A stretch of DNA of 64,000 bases from Acidimicrobiales bacterium (lineage in GTDB: Bacteria > Actinomycetota > Acidimicrobiia > Acidimicrobiales > Palsa-688): contig DASUWA010000001.1 of assembly GCA_036378675.1 (NCBI GenBank), positions 1-64,000 of the forward strand, written 5' to 3'. Shown here in pieces: positions 57,355 to 64,000 of this stretch; the stretch's first letter is position 1; each line of letters starts with the position of its first letter. The position numbers and the translations under genes are program-made. Below the pieces are notes generated by a model. That model was not told the origin of the DNA. It made no database searches and worked only from the letters and a program-made list of their open reading frames with translations.

Positions 57355-57837
57355 TCACACACAATCCCGACAAAGCATCCGGTTTCCGTCGGCGAGCTGG
57401 CTCGGGTGCTTCACCAAGAAGCACGACTGGCAAACGAACTCGCCCGGCTGCTTCGGCAGTACTCGCAGCGGGCTCTCGCCGCGCTCGTCGCCCTCCGCGA
57501 GTTCTTCTTCGTCTTCCTCGTCCTCGTCGTCGGTTACGACGAGGCGTTCCTTCAGGATGACATCCAGGCTCGCTTCGACGTCGTCGGTGTCCTCGTCTTC
57601 GTCGTCTTCGTCGTCCTCGTCATCCTCACGGGCCTTGACCGCTACCTGTGTCCCGTTCTCCTCATCCTCCAACTCGTCCTCGTCGTCTTCGAGAGCGTCG
57701 TCGTCGTCATCGTCATCGTCCTCGAGCGCGTCCTCGTCCTCGAGGTCCTCTAGGTCCTCCTCGTCAAGATCCTCGGGCAGCTCTTCCTCATTCTCTTCGT
57801 CGTCTACAACTTGGTCGTCGAGATCGTCTTTTGGCAT
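57355..57837 (-). CDS. DUF4193 family protein with extended acidic N-terminus
   Basis: The C-terminal 45 residues match DUF4193: VLPKQPGEFVCQSCFLVKHPSQLADG and a final CRDCV, giving a four-cysteine zinc site. The N-terminal 110 residues are extremely acidic, with a run of eight Asp and many ED/EE pairs. Typical family members are about 100 aa with a milder acidic half. The function is unknown; the family is actinobacteria-specific as I recall. AAGGA lies 8 nt before ATG 57837, so that start is chosen over a frame start at 57873. Confidence 0.82.
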   Translation of the reverse strand: MPKDDLDDQVVDDEENEEELPEDLDEEDLEDLEDEDALEDDDDDDDDALEDDEDELEDEENGTQVAVKAREDDEDDEDDEDEDTDDVEASLDVILKERLVVTDDEDEEDEEELAEGDERGESPLRVLPKQPGEFVCQSCFLVKHPSQLADGNRMLCRDCV

Positions 57838-57860
57838 CAGTGCGTCCTTATAAGCGGGTA

Positions 57861-57899
57861 CCGCCGACGGCACCGGAGCGTCGTCGGCGGCGGATACTA
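57861..57899 (-). promoter_or_regulatory. Promoter and 5'-leader hairpin of the DUF4193 gene
   Basis: Minus-strand TAGTAT (57899-57894) could be the -10. Immediately after it CCGCCGACG and CGTCGGCGG (57861-57869 and 57882-57890) form a 9-bp perfect stem at the very 5' end of the leader, about 25 nt before the ribosome binding site. Confidence 0.4.
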
Positions 57900-58376: not shown

Positions 58377-59156
58377 TCACTCGAAGCGTGGAATCAGGGC
58401 CTCGACGCTGGCGACGTACTGCTGACTTTCGGGGAAAACCCCGTAATGGCCAAGGTTCAACGGGCCTTCGTAGTAGGCGGCGATCGTCGCGCAAAGGTTG
58501 TTGTTTTCGAGGTCTGACAGGTAGCCCAGAAACGCCGCCGACATGCGAACGTTGTCGGACACCGAGTTGATGTTCATCGGCATCCCGATCAGGTTGCTGG
58601 TGATGAAGTTCGCGGTGCCGGGCATGATCTGACCCGCGCCCACTGCTCCTACCGGGGATATGACGCCCTGCTGCCAACCTGATTCCTGCCAGGCGATCGC
58701 TTCGAGGAGGGCGAGGGAGAGGTTGTAATGGTTCGCCCACTTGATGAACAGGGGCTGAAGTGAAAGACGTTTGGGCGAGTGCCGAAGCTGCGACGGCAGC
58801 ACGCCCCACGGACCGCCGTTCGGCTGGAACGTAGAGCAGAACGTCCAGGGGTTGGCGGCCGGCTGGGGGCTGGGCGCCGCCTGGCTAGGCGTCGTCGCGG
58901 TTTGCAGCGCCGGCGGCGGCGGGTCCTGCTTGGTCGGGATATTCAGCTTCCGCCCGATCAGGAGCAGGTCGCTCGGGCGCATGTTGTTCGCGGAGGCCAG
59001 CGTCGAGACGCTGACCCCGTGCTTCCGCGAAATCGCCCAGAGGGTGTCCCCTGGCTTTACCAGGTAGGTCCCGCCGGCGGTGAAGCCTGCCGCCCCGGCC
59101 GCTACCAGAAGCCCGAGGCCGAGCAGGGTGGCGATGAGGCGGAGTTGACGGCGCAT
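58377..59156 (-). CDS. LysM-containing lytic transglycosylase
   Basis: The 259-aa protein has an N-terminal signal or anchor (residues about 6-28), a LysM peptidoglycan-binding domain (31-75, YLVKPGDTLWAISRKHGVSV, then GRKLNIP), a Pro/Ala linker and an SLT-type lysozyme-like domain (about 135-259, AIAWQESGWQQGVISPVGAVGAGQIMPGT, with catalytic Glu in ESGW). It should cut peptidoglycan outside the membrane. ATG 59156 is the only canonical start, although the frame stays open upstream through an AT-rich tract to beyond the thyX stop. Confidence 0.92.
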   Translation of the reverse strand: MRRQLRLIATLLGLGLLVAAGAAGFTAGGTYLVKPGDTLWAISRKHGVSVSTLASANNMRPSDLLLIGRKLNIPTKQDPPPPALQTATTPSQAAPSPQPAANPWTFCSTFQPNGGPWGVLPSQLRHSPKRLSLQPLFIKWANHYNLSLALLEAIAWQESGWQQGVISPVGAVGAGQIMPGTANFITSNLIGMPMNINSVSDNVRMSAAFLGYLSDLENNNLCATIAAYYEGPLNLGHYGVFPESQQYVASVEALIPRFE

Positions 59157-59199: not shown

Positions 59200-59277
59200 A
59201 CAACATCAACATCAGCCTCAACAACCTCTATTTTTTCATAGACATCAGCTTTATCTTCAGCCTCAACTTGACCTTTA
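59200..59277. other. AT-rich, repetitive tract between the transglycosylase and thyX-like genes
   Basis: About 75 bp of low GC in an otherwise GC-rich region. It contains two GTTGAGGCTGA copies (minus strand) and a T6 run. It could hold the thyX terminator or the transglycosylase promoter; no clear -10 is placed. Confidence 0.4.
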
Positions 59278-60939
59278 AGGTGAGATTCGCGCCTTCTCTT
59301 GGCGTTTCAATGCAGCTCTTCGCTCGCCGGACAGGCGCTCCAAGCCCTCTTGCTCGTAGTCGGCGGGATCCACGTGGGTCATCATCTCGGCGATCACCGA
59401 ATGGCCCGCCTTCTCGGCTATCAGCCGGTGCATCTGCTGGCACACTTTGCGGTACTCGGGATGTCCCTGGGAGCTGGTTCGCAGCTCGATCAGGTGCATC
59501 GCTTCCCGGGCGTTGAACTGCATGGTGTAACGGATCCTGAAAGCCAAAGCCACCGCGTAAGCGGCCTGTCCCGGTACGAATCGCTCCGCCAGCAGGTGAT
59601 AAAGACCGGACGATCGGGCCATGGCGGCGGAGTACGCGCCCTCTCCCCCGGCTTCGACCACCGAGGCCGGAATGGTGTAGCCGTTCGACGGCGTGAGGTC
59701 CTGCCATTCGACAGTGAGCAGACGGTGCCGCTGAAGATCCCGGAACGCTCCGTAGTCGGACACCACGTCGAAGCGGTAACCGACCCTCTCGAGCGCCCTC
59801 CCCGGCTTGTGGCGCCGGTTGTTTCGGTCGCCGGCGTAGGCCCGAACAACCCGGGACCGCTCTTCGACGCTCATCCGGGCGACCTTCTCCTGCACCCGAT
59901 GCTCCGAAAGGTCGGTGTAGGGATAGAGCATCGCGGCGACCAGCTTCACCTCCGCGTCCGGATCCCAGTCGACCAGCTCGACTTCTGGGTCCCCGCCCAC
60001 CCTCGGCTCCTCCGGCTCGGCGGGCGCCTCGAAAATGCTCCTCGCCAGCTTGCGCATTTCCTTCGAGGTGCATTCCAGATAGGAGGAATGCTCCACTCCC
60101 CTGTCGGTTGCGTCCACCCGCTTCACCCAGGAAGGGATCACCTTCCGCAGCTCCTCGAGGATCATGTCGGCGTAAAGCTGCGCCTCCGGAAGCGGGTTCG
60201 AGCGCATGCGGATCAGCAGTGCCTCATAGGCCTGCCCGCTGGCGTAGATCCCGAGGTTCGAGGTCGCGCCGGCCGGGAGGATGCCGCGCAGCGCGTCGAA
60301 TGCCTTGGCGCGGATGGATTGGCGCCACACGAAGTCGCTGTCCTCCGCCGACTTCGGATGGCGGGCCGAGAAATAGGACTGCATCACCGGCAGGAGCTCG
60401 GCGTACGAGTCGAACAGCCGGTCCATGTCGCCGACGTACCTCGCTCCAAGCGGCGAGTCGAGGATCGCTGCGTCCCGGTAGTAGCGGTAGCGGCCGTTGG
60501 GCAGCCTGCTGTCGTACGCGACATATCGCGTCGACTTTTCCATGTAGGACATGAGCCGGCCCCACTCGAGGATCTTGGTGAGGACGTTCGACGCCTGTTC
60601 GCAGGCGAGGTGAACGCCGCCAAGCTGGGCAACTGAGTCGTCCCCGTATTCGAAGAAGACCCTGTCGTACAGCTGCTCCGCCCGTGCCAGCCCGATCGTC
60701 GCGTCAACCCCCAGGTCGCCGCTTATGTCGAGGTCCCCTACGAACTCGTCGAGGAACAGGCGCCGGAGGCTTTTCGCCGAACGGGAGTACCTCGCGAACA
60801 GGGCCCCCTTGACCACCTCCGGCAGGTTGACCAGCGCGAAAACGGGGGCGTCGAGGTTGGTGAAATACCGCCGCAGAACCTCGGCTTCCTCGTCGGTCCA
60901 TTGCTCGACGGCGTACACCCCGGTGTCCAAGTAGCCCAT
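59275..60939 (-). CDS. Tandem ThyX-like protein (FAD-dependent thymidylate synthase family)
   Basis: The 554-aa protein is about twice the length of canonical ThyX and appears to be two ThyX-like halves. The N-terminal half (residues about 15-300) has EWGRLMSYMEKSTRY (126-139 for WGR to STRY), which keeps the S-x2-E-x-S-x-R-Y part of the ThyX motif but has WGR in place of RHR. The C-terminal half (about 330-554) has QRHRLLTVEWQDL (RHR at 404-406), which keeps RHR but lost the Ser/Glu. ThyX makes dTMP from dUMP with FAD and methylene-tetrahydrofolate. Whether this long form is catalytic is not known to me. ATG 60939 is preferred to TTG 60957. helY lies 48 nt upstream. Confidence 0.82.
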   Translation of the reverse strand: MGYLDTGVYAVEQWTDEEAEVLRRYFTNLDAPVFALVNLPEVVKGALFARYSRSAKSLRRLFLDEFVGDLDISGDLGVDATIGLARAEQLYDRVFFEYGDDSVAQLGGVHLACEQASNVLTKILEWGRLMSYMEKSTRYVAYDSRLPNGRYRYYRDAAILDSPLGARYVGDMDRLFDSYAELLPVMQSYFSARHPKSAEDSDFVWRQSIRAKAFDALRGILPAGATSNLGIYASGQAYEALLIRMRSNPLPEAQLYADMILEELRKVIPSWVKRVDATDRGVEHSSYLECTSKEMRKLARSIFEAPAEPEEPRVGGDPEVELVDWDPDAEVKLVAAMLYPYTDLSEHRVQEKVARMSVEERSRVVRAYAGDRNNRRHKPGRALERVGYRFDVVSDYGAFRDLQRHRLLTVEWQDLTPSNGYTIPASVVEAGGEGAYSAAMARSSGLYHLLAERFVPGQAAYAVALAFRIRYTMQFNAREAMHLIELRTSSQGHPEYRKVCQQMHRLIAEKAGHSVIAEMMTHVDPADYEQEGLERLSGERRAALKRQEKARISP

Positions 60940-60987
60940 AATCGCGGAGTCCAACACTACGAGGGCGCGGCCTCGTGTGTGGGGACC

Positions 60988-63621
60988 CTAATTGCCGACG
61001 ACCGATGAGGCGGCGACCACTCCCCTCATCAAACGGTCTGCAGCGGAACGAGCCGCCGAGGCGGTGGCCGGATCGGGTGCCACGTCGCCGAGCTGGCGTA
61101 GCAGGTCGACCAGCTGCTTCACGTTGCGGACGAAGTCCCCGCCGGATATCTCCTCGTCCTCGATCACCTCGGCGAGCTCCTCCCCCGCCGCCCAGGCCGC
61201 CGCCAGCCCGGCGAATCCCGGGTCCGGCCGGCGGGTGAGGGGAAGGCCGGCCTCGTCCTCGGCGGTGTTCAGCTCCGCACCGAGGCGATCGATCTCGACC
61301 CATCGCCGGCGTACCCGTGGGGTTGGGAACCACGCCGTTCCCTCGGCAGGACCCCGAGCCTCGAACGTGAACGCCGAAACGGTCCCGGCGAGCTCGGCCG
61401 TCTCGAGGCCGTCCAACAGCCCCTGCCCCAGGCACTCCGCTATCAGCAGGTCCTCTTCGTGGTAGATCCGGGCGAGTCGCTCCCCAGCGTCTGTCAACGA
61501 CCACCCGTCGACGTACCCCCACGCCTCCAGCACCCTGAGGACCCGGTCGAACTGACGGGCCAAAGACTCGACCCGGCCCTTGACCCGGCGCTGGAGCCGC
61601 TCGGCGTCGCGTGCCAGCCGGTCGGCCCGGTCAAGGGCCCTCACGTGCGCCCGCTCGTCCGGGCAGGACGCCACCGGGTGCCGGGCGGCGGCGCCGGCCT
61701 GCGACATGGCGACCTCGCCCCTCCACTGACGGCGCGAGGAGACTCCGTAGTCGGGCCGATCGTCGAGCCGGGCGGCGAGCAAGGCCGAAGCCACCTGCTT
61801 CTGGAACGCCGAGTTGTTCGGCGTATACGGCGACGGGAGGTTCACCGCGGCGACCGGCTTCGGAGGAGCAGGAAAGTTCTTGGGACCGAGCGACAACAAC
61901 CTCCCGTCGGCGGTGACCGCGCGCAGCCGCACGTCGCCCCCGCGACGCCGAGCCGTGGAAAGCACCGCCACCCGTCCTCCCGCCCGCGCTCCTGGAACCA
62001 GCAACACGTCGCCGGGCCGGACCTTTTCGAGCGCGGCCAGCACCTCGGCCGTCATCGACGGGCGGTGCCGGGCCGACTCTTCGCTGGCCCGGAGGAGCCG
62101 GCGGTACTCCTCCACGTCCCCTCGATCGCATTTCGCCGCCGCCTTGGCCTCCTCGAGAGCCGTGGTGGTGCGTTCGAGTTGCGCTTCCAGCCGGACGACG
62201 TCACTGTCGGCGCGGTACTGCGCGAACGAGAGGTTCAGAAGGTGATGGGCCACGTCGGGCGGGTACCGGCGAACCAGGTTGGCCGCCATGTTGTACGTAG
62301 GCCTGAAGCTGCTCGTCAACGTGTAGCTGCGCGCGCCGGCGAGCCCGGCGACTTGTTCGAACGGGACGAACGGCGACCAAAGCACAACCGCGTACCCCAC
62401 CTCGTCGATGCCCCTGCGGCCCGCCCGGCCGGTCAGCTGGGTGTACTCACCCGGGGTGAGGAACTCGTGGCGCTCCCCGGTGAACTTGGTGAGCTTCTCG
62501 ATGACCACCGTTCTCGCCGGCATGTTGATCCCGAGAGCGAGGGTTTCCGTCGCGAAGACCGCCTTGACGAGGCCGGCGGCGAAGCACGCCTCAACCGCCT
62601 CCTTGAACGGAGGCACCATCCCGGCGTGGTGGGCGGCGAAACCCGCCTCGAGCCCGTTGAGCCACCCCGGGTAGTCGAGAACGCGAAGGTCCTCGTCGGT
62701 GAGCGACCCCACGTGGCTCTCGGCGATGATCCGGATCTGCCGTCGCTCCTCGGCCGTCGTCAGCCTCCCGCCTTCCCTCACGCACTGCACGACGGCGTCG
62801 TCGCACGCCGCCCGGCTGAAAATGAAGTAGATCGCCGGGAGCATGTCTTGATCGGCGAGCAGGTCGATGACCTCGATTCTCCTCGGCGTAAAAAGACGTC
62901 CCCTTGGTTTGCCGCGCATCCCGGCATGACGGAGCGTCTTGGAGTCGAGAGCGGCAGCCTCCGCGTTGGGCCGGCCATCAACGAGGGTCGACATCAACAG
63001 GAGGCGGTCGGAGGTCTTGTCTCCCAGCAGGTAGAGGTCGTGCAGCTCTACGGGCCGATGATCTTCGATAACCGCATTCGTCTCTCCGCGGACGGTTGCG
63101 ATCCAATCGGCAAGCTCCTCGGCGTTCGAGACGGTCGCAGAGAGGCAGACCAGATCGACCTCGGGCGGAGCGTGAATGATCACCTCTTCCCAGACGGGAC
63201 CGCGGTAGGCGTTCTGGAGGTAGTGGACTTCGTCGAGGACGACGTATCGAAGCCCCTGCAACGAACCCGAAGCGGCGTAGATCATGTTCCGTAGGACTTC
63301 GGTCGTCATCACGACGATCGGCGCGTTGCCGTTTATCGAGTTGTCGCCCGTCAACAGTCCGACCTGGTTCGCTCCGTGGCGCTCGACGAGCTCGCCGTAC
63401 TTCTGGTTCGAAAGCGCTTTCAGCGGCGTTGTATAGAACGCTTTGCGACCTTCGGAGAGCGCCTTGGCGACCGCGTACTGGGCGACCACCGTCTTGCCCG
63501 AGCCGGTCGGCGCGGCGACGACGACGCTCCCACCCGAGTCGAGAGCATCGAGTGCATTGCGTTGGAACGCGTCGAGCTCGAAACCGAGGTCTGCTTCGAA
63601 CTTGGCGCGGACGGCATCCAT
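60988..63621 (-). CDS. helY: SKI2-like DEAD/DEAH-box helicase HelY
   Basis: The protein is about 877 aa from ATG 63621. Helicase motifs are in order: AAPTGSGKT (Walker A), TTPLKALSNQK, VLDEVHYLQ (DEVH), LSATVSN, FATETLALGINMPAR and QLTGRAGRRG. The C-terminal half has the rRNA-processing arch and DSHCT domain seen in Mtr4/Ski2 (WGYVDGWSLTDAGERLARIYHEEDLL). HelY is probably an RNA helicase in RNA turnover. Longer in-frame starts up to 63867 would lie inside tatC and add non-homologous residues. tatC precedes it by 8 nt, as in mycobacteria. Confidence 0.93.
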   Translation of the reverse strand: MDAVRAKFEADLGFELDAFQRNALDALDSGGSVVVAAPTGSGKTVVAQYAVAKALSEGRKAFYTTPLKALSNQKYGELVERHGANQVGLLTGDNSINGNAPIVVMTTEVLRNMIYAASGSLQGLRYVVLDEVHYLQNAYRGPVWEEVIIHAPPEVDLVCLSATVSNAEELADWIATVRGETNAVIEDHRPVELHDLYLLGDKTSDRLLLMSTLVDGRPNAEAAALDSKTLRHAGMRGKPRGRLFTPRRIEVIDLLADQDMLPAIYFIFSRAACDDAVVQCVREGGRLTTAEERRQIRIIAESHVGSLTDEDLRVLDYPGWLNGLEAGFAAHHAGMVPPFKEAVEACFAAGLVKAVFATETLALGINMPARTVVIEKLTKFTGERHEFLTPGEYTQLTGRAGRRGIDEVGYAVVLWSPFVPFEQVAGLAGARSYTLTSSFRPTYNMAANLVRRYPPDVAHHLLNLSFAQYRADSDVVRLEAQLERTTTALEEAKAAAKCDRGDVEEYRRLLRASEESARHRPSMTAEVLAALEKVRPGDVLLVPGARAGGRVAVLSTARRRGGDVRLRAVTADGRLLSLGPKNFPAPPKPVAAVNLPSPYTPNNSAFQKQVASALLAARLDDRPDYGVSSRRQWRGEVAMSQAGAAARHPVASCPDERAHVRALDRADRLARDAERLQRRVKGRVESLARQFDRVLRVLEAWGYVDGWSLTDAGERLARIYHEEDLLIAECLGQGLLDGLETAELAGTVSAFTFEARGPAEGTAWFPTPRVRRRWVEIDRLGAELNTAEDEAGLPLTRRPDPGFAGLAAAWAAGEELAEVIEDEEISGGDFVRNVKQLVDLLRQLGDVAPDPATASAARSAADRLMRGVVAASSVVGN

Positions 63622-63629
63622 CCGCTGCT

Positions 63630-64000
63630 CTACTTCTTCAAGAGGCGGCCCACAAGGATCGCCGACTCGTAGAAGAAGAGCATCGGAACGGCCATCGCGA
63701 GGAAAGAAAACGGGTCGCTGCTCGGCGTGATCACCGCGGCCACCAAGCAAATCACCACGATGGCCGGCCGCCGCCACCTCCGCCACGTGGCGCTCGGTAC
63801 TACCTCCACCAGCTGCAGGAAAACGACGAGCAGCGGGTAGATGAAAACCACCCCGAAGATGAGGCACATCGTGACGTAGAGGGTGAAGTATCTCGTCGGG
63901 GAGAACAGCGGGACGATCCCCGTGCCGCTGACATCGATCAGCCAGGTGAGGGCTTTCGGAAACACCAAGATCGCGGTGGTCACCCCGCCGGCGAAGAGCG
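63630..64000 (-). CDS. tatC: Sec-independent protein translocase TatC, 3' part only
   Basis: The window holds about 122 C-terminal residues; the 5' end lies beyond position 64000. Visible are LFAGGVTTAILVFPKALTWLI and FSPTRYFTLYVTMCLIFGVVFIYPLLVVFLQLVEVV, the TatC transmembrane helices 2-4 region, then two more hydrophobic segments and a short basic tail. TatC recognises twin-arginine signal peptides in the membrane. The next gene, helY, begins 8 nt after the stop. Confidence 0.92.
   Translation of the reverse strand, partial: LFAGGVTTAILVFPKALTWLIDVSGTGIVPLFSPTRYFTLYVTMCLIFGVVFIYPLLVVFLQLVEVVPSATWRRWRRPAIVVICLVAAVITPSSDPFSFLAMAVPMLFFYESAILVGRLLKK

Follow-up and report, generated by a model that had tools for sequence, protein, structure and literature searches.

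The window analyzed here, a 64,000-nucleotide stretch of an Acidimicrobiales bacterium genome (contig DASUWA010000001.1, positions 1 to 64,000), contains on its minus strand a gene for a protein with two domains related to the flavin-dependent thymidylate synthase ThyX (59275..60939), which we refer to as the tandem ThyX. The frame is open over 59275-60957, giving 560 amino acids from a GTG at 60957. An in-frame ATG at 60939 begins an open frame of 555 codons, and a start at the GTG adds six residues to it. Residue numbers are counted from the GTG. The protein matched the Thy1 profile (PF02511) over two stretches, with a whole-protein score of 122.4 bits. The N-terminal Thy1 domain (60130..60684, minus strand) scored 50.7 bits over profile positions 37-191, and the C-terminal Thy1 domain (59410..59976, minus strand) scored 70.1 bits over positions 2-188, so that each half alone passes the Pfam gathering cut-off of 24.8 bits.

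Both halves are predicted to adopt the ThyX fold. The AlphaFold2 model of the tandem, a single chain without ligands, had a mean predicted local distance difference test score (pLDDT) of 89.3 and a predicted template modeling score (pTM) of 0.88, and the N-terminal half (N-half) modeled alone reached a pLDDT of 85.2. The model of the C-terminal half (C-half) aligned with Thermotoga maritima ThyX (1o26_C) over 193 residues at Z 17.0 and a root-mean-square deviation (rmsd) of 2.3, with a best Z of 17.2. For the N-half model, the matches included 2gq2_A (Z 11.8, rmsd 6.0, 209 residues) and 1o25_A (Z 10.8, rmsd 3.7, 181 residues), and the first unrelated structure appeared at Z 4.0. No solved structure was close in sequence: a phmmer search of the tandem against Protein Data Bank (PDB) sequences returned only E 0.96, and in a profile search against the PDB the hits to ThyX were weak (best E 0.0035) and appeared alongside decarboxylases that are not related.

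The ThyX signature motif is divided between the two halves. A preliminary description of this gene had read two Thy1 halves in one reading frame, the first with S..E.S.RY intact and WGR in place of RHR, the second with RHR retained and the serine and glutamate lost, and our analysis bears out each of these points. The N-half motif is WGRLMSYMEKSTRY, which runs from W132 to Y145 (60523..60564, minus strand). In it the equivalents of E86, S88, R90, and Y91 are retained as E140, S142, R144, and Y145, and those of R78 and H79 are lost, with WGR replacing RHR. The C-half motif is RHRLLTVEWQDLTP; RHR is retained as Arg410-His411-Arg412 (59722..59730, minus strand), threonine stands at the first serine, tryptophan at the glutamate, and aspartate at the second serine, and the Arg-Tyr pair is gone. 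Equivalents are given in T. maritima numbering unless stated otherwise, and were assigned from predicted secondary structure, profile alignment to single-domain ThyX, and residue spacing.

Canonical ThyX is a homotetramer in which the subunit termed "A" provides flavin binding and activation of deoxyuridine monophosphate (dUMP), and the subunit termed "C" provides dUMP binding and methylene transfer. Arg147, following UniProt/HAMAP annotation, also belongs to the "C" set. The idea that ThyX sites form between subunits, on which the preliminary description relied, agrees with the residue-by-subunit assignment for Mycobacterium tuberculosis ThyX (PMC6514825), where RHR (95-97) and Arg199 come from subunit A, the phosphates of flavin adenine dinucleotide (FAD) are served by Ser71 and Arg190 of subunit B, and subunit C contributes Arg87, Ser105, Arg107, and Tyr108, which acts as the lid. 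Three further papers assign Gln75 and Arg182 of a viral ThyX to one monomer and Ser88 and Gln89 to a different one (PMC3498832), describe Arg174 as activating dUMP, with Ser88 and Tyr91 likely aiding transfer (PMC8316439), and have Arg78 facing the reduced flavin, with His53 supplied by a third monomer (PMC11940539).

The residues retained in the tandem sort between its halves by the subunit that supplies them in these structures. The A-role residues (RHR and Arg174) and the C-role residues (Ser88, Arg90, and Tyr91) are all present once per chain, the former in the C-terminal and the latter in the N-terminal domain. Beyond the motif, the equivalents of Arg147, Arg165, and Arg174 are also divided between the halves. 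We compared 139 distinct tandem sequences, a count that omits duplicates and the incomplete locus L026, loci L032-L040 and L083-L093 having been excluded beforehand. E140, S142, R144, and Y145 of the N-half were invariant (139/139), as were Arg224 of the N-half, equivalent to T. maritima Arg147 (60286..60288, minus strand), and the RHR of the C-half. Arg493 of the C-half, equivalent to the dUMP-activating Arg174 (59479..59481, minus strand), was likewise present in 139/139, with methionine or leucine as its N-half counterpart, and Arg484 of the C-half, equivalent to Arg165 (59506..59508, minus strand), had Gln242 as its N-half counterpart, each in 139/139. At the positions lost from the N-half, the equivalents of Arg78, His79, and Arg174 were W/R/H, G/P/S, and M/L, respectively. 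The C-half no longer has equivalents of Ser88, Arg90, Tyr91, and Arg147, and at position 466, its counterpart of Arg224, most tandems have S, P, A, Q, or G and 1 of 139 has arginine; drift at these positions suggests that they are unused. Residue spacing also agrees, with R95-S105-R107-Y108 and R190-R199 of M. tuberculosis corresponding to positions 132-142-144-145 and 484-493 of the tandem.

Not every feature of the motif as first described proved to be conserved. The division itself holds in 139/139, but the tryptophan of WGR (W 111, R 27, H 1) and the first serine of the N-half S..E.S.RY (S 74, A 64, G 1) vary, and the third residue of WGR is arginine in all. We note that 70 of the 139 tandems came from a scan with patterns that included the N-half motif (80 loci, of which 70 with distinct sequences were counted), so that motif conservation in that part of the sample is biased; the same A/C split was found in all 69 tandems left when the pattern-selected ones were set aside. 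Since the split is common to 139 distinct proteins, we rejected chance degeneration or a sequencing fault.

Given that each position is retained in one half only, a role-consistent grouping of the four sequence blocks would arise by chance about 1 time in 8, and so the weight rests on conservation and on far relatives. Seven of these were aligned, from Parabacteroides distasonis (46% identity), Miltoncostaea, one viral contig, the Tunturiibacter phage Tunturi_5, and three Bacillus/Paenibacillus plasmids, and the A/C split was found in 7/7. Identity in the Tunturi_5 and three plasmid tandems was 21-28%, with the split preserved. These four lack the third arginine of RHR in the N-half, and the three plasmid tandems have RHNR, with one residue inserted, as the C-half motif.

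We consider it very likely that in the tandem two ThyX domains, fused and diverged long ago, divide between them the catalytic duties of a predicted flavin-dependent thymidylate synthase. The C-half would act as a dedicated A subunit and the N-half as a dedicated C subunit, and two chains would pair so that their four halves make up a pseudo-tetramer. In it, each C-half would hold the flavin through RHR and activate dUMP through Arg493, with an N-half contributing Ser142, Arg144, Arg224, and the Tyr145 lid to the same site. The cofactors would be FAD and methylene-tetrahydrofolate. Two working sites would result, each made of one C-half and one N-half; the other two combinations would lack needed residues and be dead, and neither half would work alone. 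The suggestion in the preliminary description that the halves complement each other is thus favored, because the retained residues sort by supplying subunit.

Several residue-level findings weigh against this reading. The equivalent of His53 is absent, with Asp106 in the N-half and Pro385 in the C-half in 139/139; the equivalent of Gln75 is likewise absent from both halves (Asp407 in the C-half); that of Asn85 is missing from both halves; and that of M. tuberculosis Arg87 is Asn124 in the N-half and Tyr402 in the C-half. The "B" role at the FAD phosphate is ambiguous, with the Ser55 equivalent in the N-half and the Arg165 equivalent in the C-half. The far group of Tunturi_5 and the three plasmid tandems has both in its N-half, the placement of the Arg165 equivalent being reversed there. 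The N-halves of those four tandems also carry the His53 equivalent, and in the three plasmid tandems the M. tuberculosis Arg87 equivalent is in the N-half as well. Finally, the tandem scored 45.1 bits on the NCBI ThyX equivalog TIGR02170, below the cut-off of 87.9 bits, and the whole RHR...S..E.S.RY motif that a TIGR02170-type criterion places within one domain was divided in 139/139 tandems. With the His53, Gln75, and M. tuberculosis Arg87 equivalents missing, flavin and folate handling may differ from that of the textbook enzyme.

Positions at the two dead-looking sites are conserved too: Gln242 and Asp106 in the N-half and Arg387 in the C-half were each found in 139/139 tandems, and Trp418 in the C-half in 135/139. 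This conservation would fit an extension of the split-duty reading in which these sites have taken on a second job, such as regulatory binding of a nucleotide or folate. It could also serve packing, and we regard the extension as rather doubtful.

Genome content is consistent with a role for the tandem in thymidylate synthesis. The genome that contains the window is 4.1 Mb and 97.3% complete, and the tandem is its sole Thy1 gene. A profile search for ThyA (PF00303) found none in this genome, and the same search was positive in 9 of 14 control genomes. On these Thy1 and ThyA profile searches we rejected a second canonical ThyX or a ThyA in this genome; a canonical thymidylate synthase elsewhere was one half of what the preliminary description named as refuting its reading. 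Searches for thymidine kinase (PF00265, the one salvage kinase family covered) and dihydrofolate reductase (DHFR, PF00186) also found none in this genome. Of the 61 genomes examined in the order, 56 had Thy1 and one had a ThyA match, which was partial (G017).

Across the class, the genomes with ThyA are mostly those that lack the tandem. In a sample of 296 genomes at least 90% complete, 271 had Thy1: 260 with at least two matches, eight of one genus (f53/g125) with a single-domain ThyX, and three others with one match. ThyA was found in 30 of the 296: among the 25 genomes that lack Thy1, 22 had it, and among the 271 that carry Thy1, 8 did (Fisher test, p ~1e-23, uncorrected for relatedness). 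For 5 of the 25 genomes without Thy1 (G241, G243, G245, G247, and G251), this state was deduced from the numbering; four of the five have ThyA, the match in G247 being cut by a contig end. Of the eight genomes with both genes, three had a full ThyA or one split over two frames (G151, G286, and G068), and five had weak partial matches (G017, G115, G211, G287, and G290). The partial matches in these five tandem-bearing genomes cover about profile positions 50-229, and they are perhaps nucleotide hydroxymethylase-like proteins. Two Thy1 matches and no ThyA match were counted in 252 of the 296 genomes (our tally), which makes the tandem look like the usual thymidylate synthase of the class. Two families (f55 and f58) include both ThyA and Thy1 states, so replacement probably occurred more than once. 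In genomes of f58, f66, and f55/g182 that lack the tandem, thyA often has a DHFR gene as its neighbor; it looks as though the tandem had given way to a thyA-folA pair.

DHFR showed a related pattern. It was matched in 13 of the 296 genomes, and 11 of these belong to the 25 that have a strong ThyA match; in the 11, the DHFR gene adjoins thyA by coordinates. ThyX, unlike ThyA, yields tetrahydrofolate (PMC4177761), and DHFR loss fits with this.

Some genomes run counter to this pattern. Five of the 61 order relatives lack Thy1, at completeness of 61-92%, and two genomes of the class (G151 and G286) carry the tandem together with a full ThyA. Neither Thy1 nor ThyA was found in G259 and G337 (93% and 91% complete), nor in G241, by deduction from the numbering. 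About 14 ThyA genomes of family f68 are without a PF00186 DHFR match, one genome (G140) has DHFR and the tandem without ThyA, and another (G075) has a weak DHFR match. Judged by genome content, the tandem appears to serve this organism as its thymidylate synthase.

An alternative is that the tandem descends from ThyX but has given up thymidylate synthesis, with deoxythymidine monophosphate (dTMP) coming from an unrecognized enzyme or from uptake. A precedent is the atypical Corynebacterium glutamicum ThyX, which the title of PDB entry 3ge9 describes as not required for thymidylate biosynthesis. The missed TIGR02170 cut-off and the loss of the His53 and Gln75 equivalents fit this explanation too, and PF00265 was the sole thymidine kinase family searched. 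Against it, the genome searches found neither a ThyA nor another Thy1 nor a thymidine kinase of family PF00265, ThyA is found mostly where the tandem is absent (22/25 versus 8/271), and the catalytic residues are invariant in 139 proteins. We consider it improbable, and the new function raised in the preliminary description is disfavored by the same pattern of ThyA replacement across the class.

More improbable still is that the tandem methylates C5 of some other pyrimidine nucleotide, as does PolB, a ThyX relative that acts on UMP/dUMP. The PolB chains 4p5a and 4p5b rank among the ThyX chains in the fold matches of both halves (36 and 46 for the C-half, 44 and 46 for the N-half), so the substrate cannot be read from the fold; however, alternation with ThyA across the class is not expected of an accessory methylase. 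Equally hard to credit is an enzyme formed by the C-half alone with the N-half as scaffold or regulator, since the C-half, though nearer canonical ThyX (70.1 versus 50.7 bits; best Z 17.2 versus 11.8), is without the Ser88, Arg90, Tyr91, and Arg147 equivalents that the N-half retains in 139/139.

The two halves appear to have separated long ago. An hhalign comparison of the N-half with the C-half gave a probability of 6%, and comparison of the halves with single-domain ThyX gave 97.6% and 98.2%; because the halves match each other poorly and each matches single-domain ThyX, we rejected a recent internal duplication. The N-halves of the Bacillus, Paenibacillus, and phage tandems scored 93-118 bits against the actinobacterial N-half and 18-47 bits against single-domain ThyX, and their C-halves scored 41-110 bits against the actinobacterial C-half and 21-38 bits against single-domain ThyX, with only a small lead in B. 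licheniformis (46.0 versus 38.4 bits). As far N-halves are best matched by the N-half and far C-halves by the C-half, a single old duplication likely lies behind these tandems.

Tandems also occur outside the class and on mobile elements. A tandem profile search matched 170 of 396 genomes of the phylum. At E <1e-100, 130 of these were of tandem type, 56 within the class and 74 outside it (by our count), and five were covered partly or in pieces (G166, G169, G569, G591, and G618). The other 40 matches fell at E ~1e-7 to 1e-13, and those whose alignment was listed match the C-half only and are single-domain ThyX. With tblastn, one tandem-like match, Tunturi_5, was found in 50,697 phage records, and 10 were found in 72,556 plasmid records, eight of them covering at least 80% of the query. 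With one match in the phage records and one viral contig carrying a tandem, we rejected the tandem as a phage-only trait. Records of P. distasonis, Bacillus, Paenibacillus, and Miltoncostaea label the tandem as "FAD-dependent thymidylate synthase".

Individual relatives showed further variation. In the 309-kb phage Tunturi_5 (L179), the tandem adjoins a dCMP deaminase gene. One genome (G375) has two full-length tandem copies (L065 and L066), and another (G073), in which neither ThyA nor DHFR was matched, has a diverged tandem (36% identity) that is split in the same way. On L180 (NZ_OY725790.1), which is labeled as a P. distasonis plasmid, the tandem gene lies among housekeeping-like genes (tRNA ribosyltransferase-isomerase, OmpA family, and DHFR), and the record may be a piece of chromosome.

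The genes around the tandem lie in the same direction. Directly upstream is a HelY/Ski2-like helicase gene with DEAD and DSHCT domains (60988..63867, minus strand), which we treat as context only; of 80 related loci (flanks of at most 2.5 kb), 46 have the helicase upstream in the same orientation, with "upstream" judged against locus base 2501 and thus approximate for loci with short flanks. A TatC gene (63630-63983, minus strand) is also upstream. A LysM and SLT transglycosylase gene (58377-59156, minus strand) follows thyX and has a homolog downstream in 22 of the 80 loci. The window also contains a gene for a DUF4193 protein with a long acidic N-terminal stretch (57355-57873, minus strand).

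Like canonical ThyX (PF02511; T. maritima TM0449, M. tuberculosis, and H. pylori), the tandem has the Thy1 domain and the predicted fold, here in both halves, and it carries the A-role and C-role residues of PMC6514825 once per chain, except for the M. tuberculosis Arg87 equivalent. It differs in having two domains per chain, divided residues, replaced His53, Gln75, M. tuberculosis Arg87, and Asn85 equivalents, a score below the TIGR02170 cut-off, and halves that are mutually distant (hhalign 6%). Domain duplication in ThyX is already in print. Valas and Bourne (2009; PMC3224940) reported a "domain duplication" in Chloroflexi ThyX and called it uncharacterized, and by that description it is probably the same family as the tandem. 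The available portion of their paper says nothing on residues; the divided site and the distribution in the window's phylum come from the present analysis. A search of openly licensed papers found no account of a divided ThyX active site, and among the papers listed by that search PMC3224940 alone named a duplicated ThyX. Within these sources, what is new here is the division of the ThyX active site between fused halves.

Comparable outcomes of duplication can be seen in other enzymes. The monomeric dUTPase of herpesviruses has a fold and reaction unrelated to those of ThyX. Like the tandem, it is a larger single chain, reported to have arisen through gene duplication, with the conserved motifs of its homotrimeric relatives rearranged into one site (PMC8961515); unlike the tandem, which probably still pairs, it has one site per chain and a displaced motif III. 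In trypanosomatid deoxyhypusine synthase, as described in the accessible part of PMC3663545, impaired and inactive paralogous subunits form one active complex, which is similar to the tandem, but they are separate gene products with allosteric activation and no split catalytic set in one chain.

A broader reading, which we offer tentatively and consider more likely wrong than right, is that the tandems are an ancient class of thymidylate synthase present in more than one phylum and on mobile elements. They would be obligate half-site enzymes, formed when a duplication froze a symmetric tetramer into a two-plus-two arrangement, with one half dedicated to flavin and dUMP activation and the other binding and lidding the nucleotide. 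The abolished sites might then have become regulatory or handle folate or NADPH, and flavin chemistry might be altered, given the loss of the His53 and Gln75 equivalents.

Cells depend on thymidylate synthesis, and the absence of ThyX from humans makes it of interest as a drug target (PMC3498832). The division of labor proposed for the tandem would amount to a natural dissection of ThyX subunit roles, in which residues that are mixed in the homotetramer could be changed one role at a time. The tandem ThyX would also be a clear example of how the two copies of a duplicated catalytic machine can lose complementary parts.
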